Source: Candidatus Sumerlaeota bacterium (GTDB taxonomy: Bacteria > Sumerlaeota > Sumerlaeia > JAFGJS01). Taken from it: DNA of 8,134 nt. The translations under genes were made by a program, and so were the position numbers. Under the pieces are notes generated by a model, which was given only the letters and a program-made list of their open reading frames with translations, ran no database searches and had not been told where the DNA came from. The DNA is taken from positions 1 to 8,134 of the forward strand of contig JAFGJS010000047.1 of assembly GCA_016928995.1 (NCBI GenBank), in the 5' to 3' direction. How positions within the stretch are numbered: position 1 is the stretch's first letter; the number at the start of each line of letters is the position of its first letter. Shown piece after piece: positions 2,087 through 8,134 of this stretch.

Positions 2087-2701
2087 TCAGTGTTTGATTT
2101 TCAGCACGACCTCAATCGTCAACAAAGTGCAAAAAATCGACAGTGAAAAAATCGCCGGGGCGAAATAAATCCGCTTCAACCGTTCCAGGTCATGAATCCA
2201 GCGTATCAGCTCGACGTAGCAGCGGAAGGAAAAGAAGATCGTGAAAATGATCGCTGCCCATCCGGCATAGATGCATGTTTGTCCGGCGAATGGTTCCAAC
2301 ACGAAAAAAAACTCCATCAACAGATGCCCCACGATGAAAGGAAACAGCGTCGCGGCGACTGTGTTCGCGCAGAGCGCCAGCGTCGTTTGCGCATGAAACA
2401 GTATGCGCAGTCCGCAGTATGTGAAGATGAAAAGAAAGAAGGGCAGGCTGATGTAGAAGACGCTGATTTCGATGAAGGAGGCTGCTTCCGGAAGTTTGCG
2501 CGAGACCAGCAATGTCACCGTCGTCGGCAGCAGCAAGACATACGCAATGAGCGCGCCGAGGGGCGCGCTCCACTTTGGATTTTTTCCGAGATTGGGGATT
2601 CGTTTGTCCGGTTCGATATAGAGCTGCAGCAGTTCCATGAACTGCTCGAAGGCTTCAAGCAGCATGCGCTTGGCCAGTTGCGTTGAAATCGAGCGATTCA
2701 T
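2087..2701 (-). CDS. Multi-pass inner-membrane protein, possibly Yip1-like
   Basis: This is a 204-residue integral membrane protein of unknown function. A short amphipathic, charged N-terminus (about 1-44, ending in KNPKW) precedes roughly five hydrophobic segments near 45-66, 76-102, 107-135, 142-160 and 177-200. The loop around 161-176 is basic (RCYVELIRWIHDLERLKR), suggesting a cytoplasmic face. The C-terminus is short and lysine-rich. There is no signal peptide, catalytic motif or metal-binding cluster. Size, helix number and a Trp-Pro pair just before or in helix 1 resemble bacterial Yip1-domain proteins, but that is an impression only. The start is taken as the ATG at 2701, which shares its A with the rbfA stop codon (TGATG). 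A GTG one codon earlier at 2704 is also possible. Its place directly behind rbfA implies co-expression with the translation genes. Confidence 0.75.
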   Translation of the reverse strand: MNRSISTQLAKRMLLEAFEQFMELLQLYIEPDKRIPNLGKNPKWSAPLGALIAYVLLLPTTVTLLVSRKLPEAASFIEISVFYISLPFFLFIFTYCGLRILFHAQTTLALCANTVAATLFPFIVGHLLMEFFFVLEPFAGQTCIYAGWAAIIFTIFFSFRCYVELIRWIHDLERLKRIYFAPAIFSLSIFCTLLTIEVVLKIKH

Positions 2702-3150
2702 CACTCGCCGCCATGGTCAGCGTCGTTCGTTTCCGTCCGCGCCTCTGCCGCATCTTGCACAGCGGCCGTCTCCTCCTGTTTCAATTGCTCCAGCAGCGCC
2801 TCGATCCGGCTCGCATGGTCAAAGTTGCGGTCGAAAATAAATTTTACATCCGGCGTGAATCGCAGAGAAATTCGCTGGCCCAGTGCGGAGCGGATGAAGC
2901 CCTTCGCGTGCTCCAGCGCTTCCAGCAGTTCCGCTTCGCCTTCCTGTTCGAGGGTGCTGACGAAAATCAATGCGTGGCGCAGATCTTTGCTGACCTTCGC
3001 GCGGCTCACCGTGATCATCCGCAGCCGTGGATCTTTCACTTCATGCAAGAGGATCGTGGCGACTTCCTCGCGGATCAATTCTTCCAATCTGGGTTTGCGC
3101 GGTTTGCTCAATGCAACGTCCTTTTCATGTCCGCCCTGGCCGGGCGTCAC
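2701..3150 (-). CDS. rbfA: 30S ribosome-binding factor A
   Basis: RbfA is a single-KH-domain protein that binds the maturing 30S subunit near the 5' end of 16S rRNA and is needed for late processing and cold adaptation. The family pattern is clear: RLEELIREEVATILL (21-35), KDPRL (39-43), the strand ITVSRAKVSKDLRHALIFVS (46-65), the helix-kink-helix GFIRSALGQRI (84-94) with the diagnostic Ala-x-Gly at 89-91, then RFTPDVKFIFD (97-107). The last 25 residues are an acidic, alanine-rich tail beyond the domain. The GTG start at 3150 overlaps the infB stop as GTGA. A TTG at 3111 (residue 14) lies seven bases after AAGGA and would give a 136-residue protein closer to the usual length, so the true start is uncertain. 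The infB-rbfA order is widely conserved. Confidence 0.95.
   Translation of the reverse strand: MTPGQGGHEKDVALSKPRKPRLEELIREEVATILLHEVKDPRLRMITVSRAKVSKDLRHALIFVSTLEQEGEAELLEALEHAKGFIRSALGQRISLRFTPDVKFIFDRNFDHASRIEALLEQLKQEETAAVQDAAEARTETNDADHGGE
3119..3123 (-). promoter_or_regulatory. Shine-Dalgarno favouring an internal TTG start of rbfA
   Basis: On the minus strand AAGGA sits exactly seven bases before TTG (3111-3109), which begins the stretch LSKPRKPRLEEL that matches the usual RbfA N-terminus. The GTG at 3150 has no comparable signal at proper distance: its nearest GAGG is 16 bases upstream. Either the TTG is the real start, or the GTG is used by coupling to infB termination. Confidence 0.4.
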
Positions 3151-5948
3151 AGCGTCTGCTTGATTTCCTCAAGTTCAAAGCATTCGATGACGTCGCCTTC
3201 CTTCACATCCTGGTAGTTCTCCAGTTGGACGCCGCACTCCAGGCCTGAGACCACGCTGCTCACATCGTCTTTCACGCGCCGCAGACTGCTGAGCTTGCCT
3301 TCGTAGACGGTCACGCTGTCGCGCACCAGGCGCGCCTGGGCTCCGCGTTGCAGCTCGCCTTCGAGCACCATGCAGCCGGCCACGTTGCCGACTTTGCTGA
3401 CCTTGAAGGTCTTCAGCACATTGGCCCGGCCGCGGAAGTTTTCCTTGTAGACCGGCTCCAGCATGCCCACCAGCGCCTTTTCGATGTCCTCGACCAGTTT
3501 GTAAATGATGCGATAGGTGCGGATTTCCACGCCTTGCGCCTGAGCCTGAAGGTTCGCGTTGTTTTCCGCGCGCACGTTGAAGCCGATGATGATCGAGTTG
3601 GTCGCCATCGCCAGCGTCACGTCCGACTCGCTGATCGCGCCGACGCCCATGTGGATGAAGTTCACCTTCACCCGCTCTTGCGGCAGTTTGTTCAGCGAAT
3701 CCTTGACCGCCTCGACGGAGCCCTGCATGTCCGCCTTGAGGATCAGATCCAGTTCCTGCACCTTGCCTTCTTCAATATGCTCATGCAGGTTTTCCAGCGT
3801 CACCCGGCTGATTTTGCGCAGGCTCTGTTTGCGGCGGCGTTGCATCCGTTTTTCCGCCACGTCGCGCGCCACGCGTTCGTCCTTCACTACGATAAATTTT
3901 TCGCCGGCGTCCGGACATCCGCTCACGCCGATCAGCTCCACCGGCTTGCTCGGACCAGCTTCCTGAACCAGTTCGCCGTGCTCGTTGCGCATACGGCGCA
4001 CACGGCCGCTCACCGTGCCGGCCACGAAGGGATCGCCCAGTTTCAGCGTTCCCTTTTGCACCAGCACCGTGGCCACTGCGCCGCGATTCGGATCCACGTG
4101 CGATTCGATAATCGTGCCTTCGGCCGGGCGCTGGGTGTCTGCCGTAAGCTCCAGCACTTCGGATTGCAGCGCGATGTGCTCCAGCAATTTGTCGATCCCT
4201 TGCCGCGTTTTGGCGGAAACCTCGACGAAGAGATTCTCGCCGCCCAGGTCTTCCGGCACGATTTCGTGGTGCATCAGCTCGTTGCGCACTCGTCCAATAT
4301 TGGATTCGGCTTTGTCGATTTTGTTAATCGCCACGATGATCGGCACTTTCGCGGCTTTGGCGTGGTTGATCGCCTCCACCGTCTGCGGCATCACGCCGTC
4401 ATCCGCCGCCACTACCAGCACCACCACGTCCGTCACGCCCGCGCCGCGCGCGCGCATTGCGGTGAACGCTTCATGGCCCGGCGTGTCGATGAAGGTGATC
4501 GCGCCATGCGGAGTGTGCACGTCATACGCGCCGATGGATTGCGTAATGCCGCCCACCTCGCCGCCCGCGATGTCGCTTTTACGGAAGGCGTCCATCAGCG
4601 ATGTTTTGCCGTGATCCACGTGTCCCATCACGGTCACGATCGGCGGACGCATCGACAGGTTTTCCGGATTGTCCGGCAACATCAATTCCGCAACGTCGTT
4701 TGCGTCCGTGTCCGGGATGAATTCCAATTCCACGTTATGTTCTGTTGCGATCAGTTCGTAAGAATCGGGCGTCAGCACGTCGTTGATCGTCGCCATTTCG
4801 CCCATCATCAGCAGCGTGCGCATCACTTCATTCACCGGTACGCTGATTTTATCCGCGAATTCGCCCAGCGTCAGATCTTCCGCCATTCGGACTTGGCGCG
4901 GGCCTTCGTCGCGTTTGGCGGATGGTTGAATCGGCTGTTGTCCGGCCGCGCCGGGTTTACGTTTGCGCATCTGGCCGCGCACCGGTCCGGTGCCCGTGGG
5001 CATGTCCTCGAATCCAACGTCTTTTTCCGTGATGATGCGCGTCGGTTTCACGCGTCCTTTGCGCCTGCGTCCCCCCTTGTCGCCGCCCGCGGTTTCTCCG
5101 CCAGCGGGGCCGCGGCGCCGGCCGCGATGGTCCTTGTCCATCTTCATCACGTCGATTACGGGGATATTCACCGCAGCCAGATCGACTTTTTCTTCGGATT
5201 TCCGGTCTCCGCCGCGTTGTTCGCCACGATGTTCGCCGCGTGGTTCGCCGCGTTGCTCGCCGCGTTCTTTTTTCTTGCGCCGGCGATCTTCGCGTTTGGG
5301 TTTGCGGGCGTCCGGATCTTCAATGGGGATGTCGCCAAAACGCCGGGTTTTCTGCACCATTTGCGCGATCGGCGAGAAGTTCACCGGCGGACGCGTCTCA
5401 TCCTGTTTCTGTTGTTGCTGGGGAACGTCTTGATCTTTCCTGGGCCGTGGCGCGCGCGCTTCAGCCGGATGGGCCGGAGCGCTTTGTGTGCGAGTGGCGG
5501 CAGGGGGCATGCCGGGAGGAAGGTCTTTTCCTTTGAGTTTGGCGATCAGACGGGCGGCTTTCAGCTTGCGCTGGGTTTCTTCGTCCGCCGCATCTCCGGC
5601 TTGCGTCTCATCAGCGGCGTCTTCCGATGAATCCTGCTGTTTGTTTTGCTCGCGCTGTTTTTTGATTCGCTGCCGCGCCGCTTCCAGTTTGCTGCTCAGC
5701 AGCTCCTTTTCAGCGTCTTTGCGCGCTTTGACTTCAGAGCGTAGCTGTTCGATCTCCGACTGCACATCGGCGCCGTCTTCGGCGGGAGAGGCGTCCTGCC
5801 GGTTTTCATAGAATTCCTTCAACCGCTTCGCATCCTTGTCGTCAACCGACGAGGAGGCGGTGGTCACGGCGATTTTCATTCGCGCCATCTGTTCGATCAG
5901 ATCGCGGCTCTTGATTCCAAGGTTTTTGGCGAGTTCATGAACTCTCAT
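3147..5948 (-). CDS. infB: Translation initiation factor IF-2
   Basis: IF2 is the GTPase that places formyl-Met-tRNA in the 30S P site and promotes 50S joining. The 933-residue protein begins with an IF2_N module (MRVHELAKNLGIKSRDLIEQM, 1-21, continuing to about 46). Next comes a long charged linker: a Glu/Lys coiled-coil-like stretch (64-104), a Pro/Gln-rich part (about 144-190) and a very basic Arg/Gly part (215-300). A second IF2_N-like module lies near 355-410. The G domain has all signatures: GHVDHGKT (442-449), GGITQSIGA (456-464), DTPGHE (488-493), NKID (542-545) and SAK (578-580). Domain II follows (about 605-700), then domain III (about 720-820) and the tRNA-binding C2 domain (about 830-930, including FKVSKVGNVAGCMV). 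The ATG at 5948 is supported by homology. It lies 129 bases after nusA and its stop overlaps rbfA by four bases. Internal repeats in the linker are listed separately. Confidence 0.98.
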   Translation of the reverse strand: MRVHELAKNLGIKSRDLIEQMARMKIAVTTASSSVDDKDAKRLKEFYENRQDASPAEDGADVQSEIEQLRSEVKARKDAEKELLSSKLEAARQRIKKQREQNKQQDSSEDAADETQAGDAADEETQRKLKAARLIAKLKGKDLPPGMPPAATRTQSAPAHPAEARAPRPRKDQDVPQQQQKQDETRPPVNFSPIAQMVQKTRRFGDIPIEDPDARKPKREDRRRKKKERGEQRGEPRGEHRGEQRGGDRKSEEKVDLAAVNIPVIDVMKMDKDHRGRRRGPAGGETAGGDKGGRRRKGRVKPTRIITEKDVGFEDMPTGTGPVRGQMRKRKPGAAGQQPIQPSAKRDEGPRQVRMAEDLTLGEFADKISVPVNEVMRTLLMMGEMATINDVLTPDSYELIATEHNVELEFIPDTDANDVAELMLPDNPENLSMRPPIVTVMGHVDHGKTSLMDAFRKSDIAGGEVGGITQSIGAYDVHTPHGAITFIDTPGHEAFTAMRARGAGVTDVVVLVVAADDGVMPQTVEAINHAKAAKVPIIVAINKIDKAESNIGRVRNELMHHEIVPEDLGGENLFVEVSAKTRQGIDKLLEHIALQSEVLELTADTQRPAEGTIIESHVDPNRGAVATVLVQKGTLKLGDPFVAGTVSGRVRRMRNEHGELVQEAGPSKPVELIGVSGCPDAGEKFIVVKDERVARDVAEKRMQRRRKQSLRKISRVTLENLHEHIEEGKVQELDLILKADMQGSVEAVKDSLNKLPQERVKVNFIHMGVGAISESDVTLAMATNSIIIGFNVRAENNANLQAQAQGVEIRTYRIIYKLVEDIEKALVGMLEPVYKENFRGRANVLKTFKVSKVGNVAGCMVLEGELQRGAQARLVRDSVTVYEGKLSSLRRVKDDVSSVVSGLECGVQLENYQDVKEGDVIECFELEEIKQTL
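5202..5264 (-). repeat. In-frame 12-base tandem repeat inside infB
   Basis: About five imperfect copies of a 12-base unit, seen on the plus strand as TTCGCCGCGTTG-like blocks, encode the residues RGEQ, RGEP, RGEH, RGEQ, RGGD at about 229-249 of IF2. They lie in the basic linker between the N-terminal module and the G domain. Copies differ mainly in the codon for the fourth residue. The region is probably disordered, and unit number could vary between strains by slippage. Confidence 0.85.
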
Positions 5949-6077: not shown

Positions 6078-7610
6078 TCAGGCGTCTTCTTCCGAGTCGA
6101 AAATCGTATCCTGTTCGGAAAGATCGACTTCCTCCTCTTCGCCTTCCGCGATTTCCGGGGCGGCTGCGGAGTCGTCGTCAGCTTCAACCTCTGCCGGTTC
6201 GGACTCTTCGCTCTCCTCCGCCTCTGGCTCGGGATCTGCTTCGCCGTGTTCCGAGGGCTCCGAGGCCGTAGCGTCGGTTTCCAACGGCTCTTCCGCGTTT
6301 TCCGGTGTCTCGTCCTCGTCGGTTTCGGCTTCCCGTTGCATCTCCTCCAGAGCCTCGTAATAATCCCGCGCGGCGTCAACGATCGTTTCCGCCAGCTCCG
6401 GATTGCCGCCGATCAGCGCGTCGATCTCGATGTTGGCCGAATTCGCGATTTTTTCCACCGAGTTGTAATCCGACGAGTTATAAAAAGACGAGCGCTGTTC
6501 GTCGCTCAGGTCCGTGATCTGGTTCAGGAAATCCTCAAGATAGCGCTGTTGAATCTCCGTGGAGGCTTTCTGCGCGCGCAGCTGCGCGTCGCCGCGAATG
6601 TCGATCTTCCATCCCACGAGCTGTGAAGCCAGCTGCACATTCTGGCCCTTCTGGCCGATCGCCAGCGCCAGGTTCTCCTCGGGCACGATGATCGAGGCCC
6701 GTTCATCCGCATTGTTCAGGTCCATCGAAACGATTTTGGCCGGCTTCAACGCGTCGCTGATGAATTGCGCCATGTTTTTACTGTATGGAATGATGTCGAT
6801 CTTCTCATTCTCGAATTCGTGCACGATCATCTGCACGCGCGAGCCCTTCATGCCGACGCACGCGCCGACCGGATCGACGTCCGGATTCATGCTCGACACC
6901 GCGATTTTCGTCCGCACTCCGGCGTGGCGCGCGATTTTCACGATCTTCACCGTGCCGTCCGCCACTTCCGGCACTTCCTGTTCGAACAGTTTGATGATCA
7001 GCTCCGGCGCCGCGCGCGAGAGGCGGATTTGCGGGCCTTTCTGTGCCTTTTCCACGGAAAGCACGAGGCATTTCAGCCGGTCGCCGAAGTTATAGCGCAC
7101 GCCGCGCGGAATCTCCGAGCGTGGCAGCAGCGCTTCAGCCTTGCCGATATTGATCACGGCGTCGCCGCGCTCAAAACGCTGCACCACGCCAGTCACGATG
7201 GCGCCGACGCGCCCTTCGAATTCGTCGAACACTTTGTCGCGCTCGGCGTCGCGCAGGCGCTGGATCACCACTTGCTTGGCGGATTCCGCCGCGATGCGGC
7301 CCAGCACTTTCGGATCGATTTCCACGCGAAGCTCTTCGCCCAGTTCGATGTCTTTTTTGATCTTGCGCGCTTCGCGCAGACCGATCTCCAGGCGTTTGTT
7401 GCGCACAATCCGGACCACAGTCTGCATCACGGTCAGACTCAGCTGTCCTTTTTCCAAATCGATATGCGGCATCGCGTCATGATACATGGATAGATTCTTC
7501 CGCGACGCTGTAATCAGCGCTTGTTGGATCGCTTCGCTGATCACATCCGGATCCAGATCTTTTTCTTTGCTGATCTGCTGAATGAAGTTTTTCAGATTCG
7601 CAATCTGCAT
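6078..7610 (-). CDS. nusA: Transcription termination/antitermination factor NusA
   Basis: NusA binds RNA polymerase near the RNA exit channel and modulates pausing, intrinsic termination and antitermination. The 510-residue protein has the polymerase-binding N-terminal domain (1-125, with DPDVISEAIQQALITASRK at 20-38 and VEIDPKVLGRIAAESAKQV at 96-114). The S1 domain follows (about 133-200, GRVGAIVTGVVQRFERGDAV). KH1 carries GMKGSR (253-258, preceded by VDPVGACV) and KH2 carries GQKGQN (319-324). Residues about 356-423 look like one degenerate helix-hairpin-helix acidic-repeat module (SVEKIA, then PELAETIVDAARDYYEAL). The last 84 residues (427-510) are a Glu/Asp-rich, presumably disordered tail ending DSEEDA. 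The ATG at 7610 is the natural family start and has a weak GGGG nine bases upstream (7620-7623). It is the first gene of the leftward unit. The usual upstream neighbour rimP is missing from the window. Confidence 0.98.
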   Translation of the reverse strand: MQIANLKNFIQQISKEKDLDPDVISEAIQQALITASRKNLSMYHDAMPHIDLEKGQLSLTVMQTVVRIVRNKRLEIGLREARKIKKDIELGEELRVEIDPKVLGRIAAESAKQVVIQRLRDAERDKVFDEFEGRVGAIVTGVVQRFERGDAVINIGKAEALLPRSEIPRGVRYNFGDRLKCLVLSVEKAQKGPQIRLSRAAPELIIKLFEQEVPEVADGTVKIVKIARHAGVRTKIAVSSMNPDVDPVGACVGMKGSRVQMIVHEFENEKIDIIPYSKNMAQFISDALKPAKIVSMDLNNADERASIIVPEENLALAIGQKGQNVQLASQLVGWKIDIRGDAQLRAQKASTEIQQRYLEDFLNQITDLSDEQRSSFYNSSDYNSVEKIANSANIEIDALIGGNPELAETIVDAARDYYEALEEMQREAETDEDETPENAEEPLETDATASEPSEHGEADPEPEAEESEESEPAEVEADDDSAAAPEIAEGEEEEVDLSEQDTIFDSEEDA

Positions 7611-7628: not shown

Positions 7629-7657
7629 AAAATAAAAAGTGGGCCGGAGCCCACTTT
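7629..7657 (-). terminator. Intrinsic terminator hairpin in the nusA 5' leader (possible attenuator)
   Basis: On the minus strand a perfect 9-bp stem, AAAGTGGGC / GCCCACTTT (7657-7649 with 7644-7636), encloses the tetraloop TCCG. The T-rich stretch TTATTTT follows directly, making TTTTTATTTT with the end of the stem. This is the classic layout of a leftward intrinsic terminator. On the plus strand the hairpin is followed only by TTTGCG, so it is directional. It ends 18 bases before the nusA ATG and no gene lies upstream in that direction. It therefore reads as a leader attenuator and not as the end of another gene. Confidence 0.75.
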
Positions 7658-7676
7658 GCGTCTCATCGAATCCTAG

Positions 7677-7704
7677 ATTGTACGAAAATAATTACGGACT
7701 GCAA
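7677..7704 (-). promoter_or_regulatory. Probable sigma70-type promoter for nusA
   Basis: On the minus strand the -10 element TACAAT (7682-7677, five of six to consensus) is 16 bases downstream of TTGCAG (7704-7699, which shares only TTG with consensus). An A-rich stretch just upstream (about 7707-7726) could serve as an UP element. Transcription would start near 7670, giving a leader of about 60 bases that contains the terminator hairpin. The -35 match is poor, so this rests mainly on the -10, the A-rich upstream DNA and the position. Confidence 0.5.
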
Positions 7705-7843
7705 GCCTTTTATTTCGATTTTTTACGCATATTTTGCGATCCCAAACCGGCGAAACGGATCGGCGATCTCGCCTGTTGCTCGACGTTGAGCTCACCCACT
7801 TTCGTCGCAGGAACATTTTTAAGCAACTATTGCTATTTCAGAA

Positions 7844-7933
7844 TCGCTATCGGTATCGGGATCACAATCGTTTGATGCGACATTTTCATTCTGTTGACGG
7901 TTGTTTCGATCCCGATCCCGATTTCGATAGCGA
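7844..7933. repeat. Long imperfect inverted repeat of ATCGGG/GATCCC-type units
   Basis: The 20-base left arm at 7844-7863 (TCGCTATCGGTATCGGGATC) pairs with the right arm at 7914-7933, giving 18 Watson-Crick pairs, one G-T pair and one mismatch across a 50-base loop. Both arms are built from hexamer-like units (TATCGG; GATCCC repeated at 7908-7919), so the dyad may have grown from short tandem units. A transcript of either strand could form a stable hairpin. There is no T-run after either arm, so it is not a terminator. It resembles repetitive intergenic elements seen in some Acidobacteriota and Planctomycetota, though I cannot confirm a family from this window. Confidence 0.75.
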
Positions 7934-8000
7934 CGCCGATTGACATTGAATGTGCTTGAGATAACTTCTGGTCTTCGCTGATGCGCCGCCATGAATCCTG

Positions 8001-8029: not shown

Positions 8030-8134
8030 CCAGGTTCAATCAACAACGGGCGCAACTCTCTTAAGCTACAGGATGATAATCTCTTTAATCATGATTCCTG
8101 ATAAGCGCTGAAAGCGCTGAGTATCTCAGCCCAG

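Follow-up and report, generated by a model that had tools for sequence, protein, structure and literature searches.

The nusA-infB-rbfA operon of this contig is headed by a short intrinsic terminator whose sequence identifies it as a rimP-leader of the general form, a terminator-type attenuator, placed here before nusA in a bacterial class without detectable rimP. The best explanation, and one that we consider probable, is a rimP-type attenuator at which termination is raised by NusA; by analogy with Bacillus subtilis and Escherichia coli, NusA would act at the leader. The leader type itself is already known, and what is new is the gene setting without rimP. The original prediction had proposed NusA-responsive attenuation of nusA; both the rimP-leader identity of the element and the apparent class-wide loss of rimP went unrecognised in it.

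The window, meaning the whole stretch of DNA that was analysed (8134 bases), comprises an entire contig (G000:C90). Pfam matches yielded the gene order nusA-infB-rbfA, which agrees with the operon that had been predicted behind the leader, and no rimP was found ahead of nusA in the window. The features are as follows.

2701..3150, minus strand: rbfA, downstream in the operon (Pfam)
3147..5948, minus strand: infB (IF2), downstream in the operon (Pfam)
6078..7610, minus strand: nusA, 510 aa, first gene of the operon (Pfam NusA_N, S1, KH_5)
7629..7638, minus strand: U-tract TTTTTATTTT, interrupted by a single A (sequence)
7636..7657, minus strand: terminator hairpin with conserved GUGGGC/GCCCAC core (fold; class conservation; one site per genome)
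7668..7672, minus strand: predicted transcription start, ~7 nt past the -10 box (from spacing only)
7677..7682, minus strand: -10-like box TACAAT, 16-nt spacer (sequence)
7699..7704, minus strand: -35-like box TTGCAG of the predicted nusA promoter (sequence; CTTGC box in class relatives)

Immediately 3' of rbfA, the window also encodes a 205-aa membrane-like protein (window 2087-2704) that had no match in Pfam.

Folding bore out the textbook terminator that had been described, with a 9-bp perfect stem, a 4-base loop and a T-rich tail. The hairpin RNA reads AAAGUGGGC-UCCG-GCCCACUUU with the tail UUAUUUUG (7657..7636, minus strand), which in DNA form is AAAGTGGGC-TCCG-GCCCACTTT followed by TTATTTTG. 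Its nine perfect pairs enclose the loop UCCG and lead into the tail TTATTTTGCT, and the U-tract has the form T5-A-T4 (7638..7629) when the T's of the 3' arm are included. The folding energy of the 22-nt hairpin is -15.0 kcal/mol compared with -4.5 +/- 2.0 kcal/mol for shuffles (z -5.3). The hairpin lies 19 nt past the TACAAT box and 25 nt ahead of the nusA ATG. The TACAAT box itself was located as predicted, upstream of both hairpin and nusA (7682..7677), with a weak TTGCAG (3/6 consensus match) 16 nt off; owing to this weak -35 box, the predicted promoter is absent from the consensus-scan list. The gap of 25 nt leaves no room for a promoter between hairpin and ATG, and transcripts of nusA thus read through the hairpin unless they start inside it. 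No antiterminator was seen in folds of the leader, in which the 13-15 nt 5' of the hairpin stay unpaired.

An 18-codon ORF (window 7666-7608; ATG 7666..7664, MRRKVGSGPLFILLWGAE) spans the hairpin and ends in a stop codon that overlaps the start of nusA (TAATG). In the window this frame is open, and AGGA lies just upstream, so that a leader peptide controlling the hairpin could be envisaged. However, relatives show random variation in start codon, frame and end, and several have no such ORF; moreover, with transcription starting where predicted, hardly any 5' leader would be left on which a ribosome could bind. The leader-peptide attenuator was rejected on the grounds that the ORF over the hairpin is not conserved in relatives, and we regard it as extremely improbable.

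The whole window holds 14 terminator-like sites compared with 10.8 +/- 4.0 in shuffles, and a single hairpin alone therefore proves little. In the window's own genome, 15 of 159 sampled genes (9%) have a terminator-like hairpin upstream (dG <= -10), and such a hairpin (dG <= -10) also occurs in shuffled upstream DNA (78/700, 11%). The case rests instead on conservation. We searched 39 genomes of the class, and the DNA upstream of nusA was readable in 34, of which 32 carry a terminator-like hairpin there (dG <= -10; Fisher p 1e-22 against the 15/159 own-genome genes). In the two exceptions, L028 and L032, the stem is long and the U-tract poor. Exact GTGGGC is present in the 5' arm in 21/34 class genomes from 10 families, even though the NusA of those relatives is merely ~45-60% identical to that of the window. 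The original prediction had made its reading depend on conservation in relatives, and conservation is what these counts revealed; the hairpin before nusA is not there by chance. Furthermore, 20/34 class relatives have a CTTGC box 35-65 nt before the hairpin, with just 2 of 22 occurrences elsewhere in the 150 nt; this box is likely the -35 element.

The same comparison bears on two readings without attenuation. If the hairpin were an ordinary terminator or insulator against upstream transcription, with no regulatory role for nusA, one would point to the 17 relatives whose nearest upstream ORF is co-directional (among 25 with a callable neighbour) and to the window's own contig, which ends ~0.5 kb upstream of nusA. 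Yet the remaining eight relatives retain the hairpin next to a divergent neighbour, promoter-like boxes sit upstream of the hairpin, the 25 nt to the ATG are too short for another promoter, and the sequence is specific to the nusA/rimP place in the genome. The promoter position and the eight divergent neighbours in particular render the insulator improbable. An mRNA can be protected by a hairpin lying within ~13 nt of its 5' end, so that the element might instead be a 5' stability element or a trans-acting small RNA for which termination is incidental. Protection needs no U-rich tract, whereas nearly all class members, and other phyla as well, have retained the tract along with the hairpin, which makes this reading very improbable.

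Three families (f3, f8 and f13) have different stems at the same position. For the covariation of stem and T-run that had been suggested as a check, this means that support is limited, given a stem conserved at the sequence level and quite different stems in these three families; stem-by-stem pair counts were excluded as proof, as the hairpins had been chosen for pairing. As a separate observation, NusA seemingly starts earlier in families f8 and f13 (L025, L028-L030, L032, L034, L036, L062), with a lysine-rich extension (MAKKKK...), and these families have GGGCCGCCC-type stems in place of the GTGGGC hairpin. The NusA extension and the stem replacement may be linked.

In the description by Naville & Gautheret, the rimP-leader is a terminator whose stem, GGGc...gCCC, is conserved and unusual and is joined by a U-stretch; situated before rimP-nusA-infB and lacking an antiterminator, it was 'the most ubiquitous transcription attenuator' of the 2010 survey (PMC2965389). 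The element in the window resembles this published form (Fig. 2b of PMC2965389) in its short hairpin with a G-rich 5' arm, in the GGGc...gCCC core (GUGGGC...GCCCAC at 7657..7636), in its U-stretch and in its position before nusA-infB, and a larger conserved structure is lacking in both. The U-stretch directly follows the stem with 25 nt to the ATG, which falls within the 4-130 nt of the rimP-leader definition, and the place-specificity of that leader is mirrored by the single site in the whole genome. In contrast to the published setting before rimP-nusA-infB, the class has no detectable rimP and nusA comes first, an arrangement of which the main text of PMC2965389 makes no mention. Despite its 2010 label, the rimP-leader is seldom named in the open-access literature that we searched.

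Rfam represents the gammaproteobacterial rimP leader as RF01770. The second E. coli hairpin (GGGCTTTAGGCCC-T7) is the general motif, and this motif (CTGGGCTTTAGGCCC-T7) precedes rimP within the two-hairpin element on which RF01770 is modelled; the family differs from our leader in having two tandem hairpins over 102 positions. A search of 61 genomes with the RF01770 covariance model returned no match at the gathering score, the window leader included, while E. coli as positive control was found with 102 bits. RF01770 covers the gammaproteobacterial two-hairpin form only and missed every general-form leader examined here, which means that annotation pipelines overlook such leaders. The whole of Rfam likewise gave nothing on the window at the gathering score; weak matches in the leader region (MarS, snoRNAs) were dismissed as chance.

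The motif is also almost unique in each genome. The exact hairpin motif occurs once in the window and in none of 200 shuffles, and the pattern GTGGGCN{3,9}GCCCACTTTT has a single site in the window's whole genome. Across 61 genomes, this pattern was found in 15, with one site each, two of them palindromic and matching both strands. All of these sites lie just 5' of nusA, except in G059, a member of another phylum, where the site is 5' of rimP. A relaxed pattern (GTGGGYN{3,9}RCCCRCTTTT) applied to 156 genomes produced 55 rows corresponding to 50 distinct sites, of which 39 are directly before nusA or rimP and 11 elsewhere. Of the 39, 19 lie upstream of nusA, all in the class; the other 20 immediately precede rimP, 19 of them in other phyla and the last on contig G029:C102. 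As the reversed control pattern gave 11 sites, equal to the 11 off-operon sites of the motif, essentially all of the motif excess belongs to the nusA/rimP operon.

Searches for rimP (PF02576, PF17384) gave no match in any class genome, including the single-contig genome G004, except on contig G029:C102; the models were positive in 10/14 known genomes used as controls, and PF02576 can miss a divergent RimP, as for a RimP-like ORF in L078 (G051) that went uncalled and was read by eye. The exceptional contig (L089, 5 kb) bears a second nusA together with rimP and a leader of its own, AAGTGGGTCTTGACCCACTT, while the main nusA of genome G029 is without rimP; the contig is likely contamination. In other phyla, 14 genomes were without a rimP match, and at least three of them have a GTGGG...CCCAC hairpin directly before nusA (L117 in G098, L121 in G113 and L122 in G126, counted as genomes regardless of kinship). 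Looser or more distant versions of the hairpin were seen in G086, G071, G106 and G043, also without a rimP match, and several other-phylum genomes are without such a leader. Where rimP and nusA are on separate contigs (G108, G079, G052), the leader was found before neither gene, and its tie to nusA is thus not absolute. On balance, these patterns suggest that the leader is associated with the nusA operon and can do without rimP.

This bears on the effector, which Naville & Gautheret left open between RimP and NusA (PMC2965389). Because a class without detectable rimP keeps the leader at nusA, RimP is disfavoured, and the sequence comparison argues against it as the reader of the stem. As a natural experiment, the rimP-less class speaks for NusA or some other operon product, and with it the effector question becomes directly testable. 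Going one step further, the leader may belong to nusA and not to rimP, with rimP-less lineages having kept a sequence-specific GUGGG[C/U] terminator whose stem is read by NusA or a partner factor. We offer this tentatively, as a serious possibility that falls somewhat short of being likely; if true, intrinsic termination would here be controlled in a sequence-specific manner, which is unusual, and this control would be conserved across bacterial phyla.

For the leader of the window, we propose the following course of events. Transcription would start ~13 nt 5' of the hairpin, and some RNA polymerases would halt at the interrupted U-tract, releasing a leader RNA of ~40-45 nt. As no antiterminator is visible, it is most likely a protein that determines how large a share of the polymerases stops. 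NusA is the best candidate, since it aids hairpin formation in the RNA exit channel and makes suboptimal terminators more efficient. An abundance of NusA would in turn lower transcription of nusA, infB and rbfA, forming a negative feedback loop. Of the attenuation reading as originally put forward, the part that gained support comprises the order promoter-hairpin-nusA, conservation in the class and membership in a published kind of attenuator, while the role of NusA remains an argument by analogy. Published work bears the analogy out: PMC12288461 states, with reference to Mondal 2016, that NusA autoregulates the B. subtilis nusA gene by stimulating termination within the 5' leader, and E. coli NusA represses its own operon (cited in PMC2965389). 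Like ours, the B. subtilis system has its terminator within the operon's 5' leader; it differs in that the NusA effect was measured there and is inferred here, and in that the first gene there is rimP (ylxS) (PMC12288461).

According to PMC12288461, the effect of NusA is greatest where a terminator has a weak hairpin or an interrupted U-tract, the features associated with NusA dependence in B. subtilis. An interrupted U-tract is present in 16/32 class leaders but in only 1/23 of the 3'-end terminators of the window's own genome (Fisher p 0.0003), a comparison that is suggestive only, because class genomes are set against the terminators of one genome. The leader hairpin, perfect as it is, is weaker (-13 to -15 kcal/mol) than most of the own-genome terminators; class leaders have a median of -14 kcal/mol, compared with values mostly near -20 kcal/mol for the own-genome 3' terminators. 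The combination of a modest hairpin and an interrupted U-tract is suggestively similar to what has been reported for terminators that depend on NusA (PMC12288461). A perfect and fairly stable hairpin might, however, terminate well without NusA.

The same attenuator anatomy could also serve a different effector, such as NusG, Rho, IF2, RbfA or some reader of GUGGGC. Since the stem is conserved in sequence, with the arm GUGGG[C/U] kept across phyla beyond the needs of pairing, a different protein reader is possible, and Naville & Gautheret likewise inferred a sequence-reading protein for the rimP-leader (PMC2965389). With respect to NusG, T5-N-T4 contains TTNTTT, the B. subtilis NusG pausing motif (PMC12288461), although any T-run does too. 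Set against these points, autoregulation through the leader has been reported for NusA itself in B. subtilis (PMC12288461), and we consider a different effector unlikely, though with a modest chance of being correct. Within the preferred reading of NusA-stimulated attenuation, sequence-level conservation of the stem exceeds what a generic NusA effect would need, and this may point to an additional sequence reader.

Two repeats were observed in the DNA upstream of the leader. At the contig end (window 8048-8134) lies an interspersed repeat of 87 bases that is 100% identical on contigs C91 and C81, with copies of 70-90% similarity at dozens of places in the genome. Its partial likeness to Acido-Lenti-1 RNA is below threshold (20 bits, cut-off 37) and probably due to chance. 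In fuller copies (L005-L008), the repeat is followed by a conserved element that contains AGCGCTGAAAGCGCTGAGTATCACAGCCCAGG and CAGGCTGGCGGGATTTTTGCCC. Closer to the promoter, window 7842-7952 holds an imperfect palindromic repeat rich in ATCGGGATCGGGATCG, and related copies occur on several other contigs (83% on C149).
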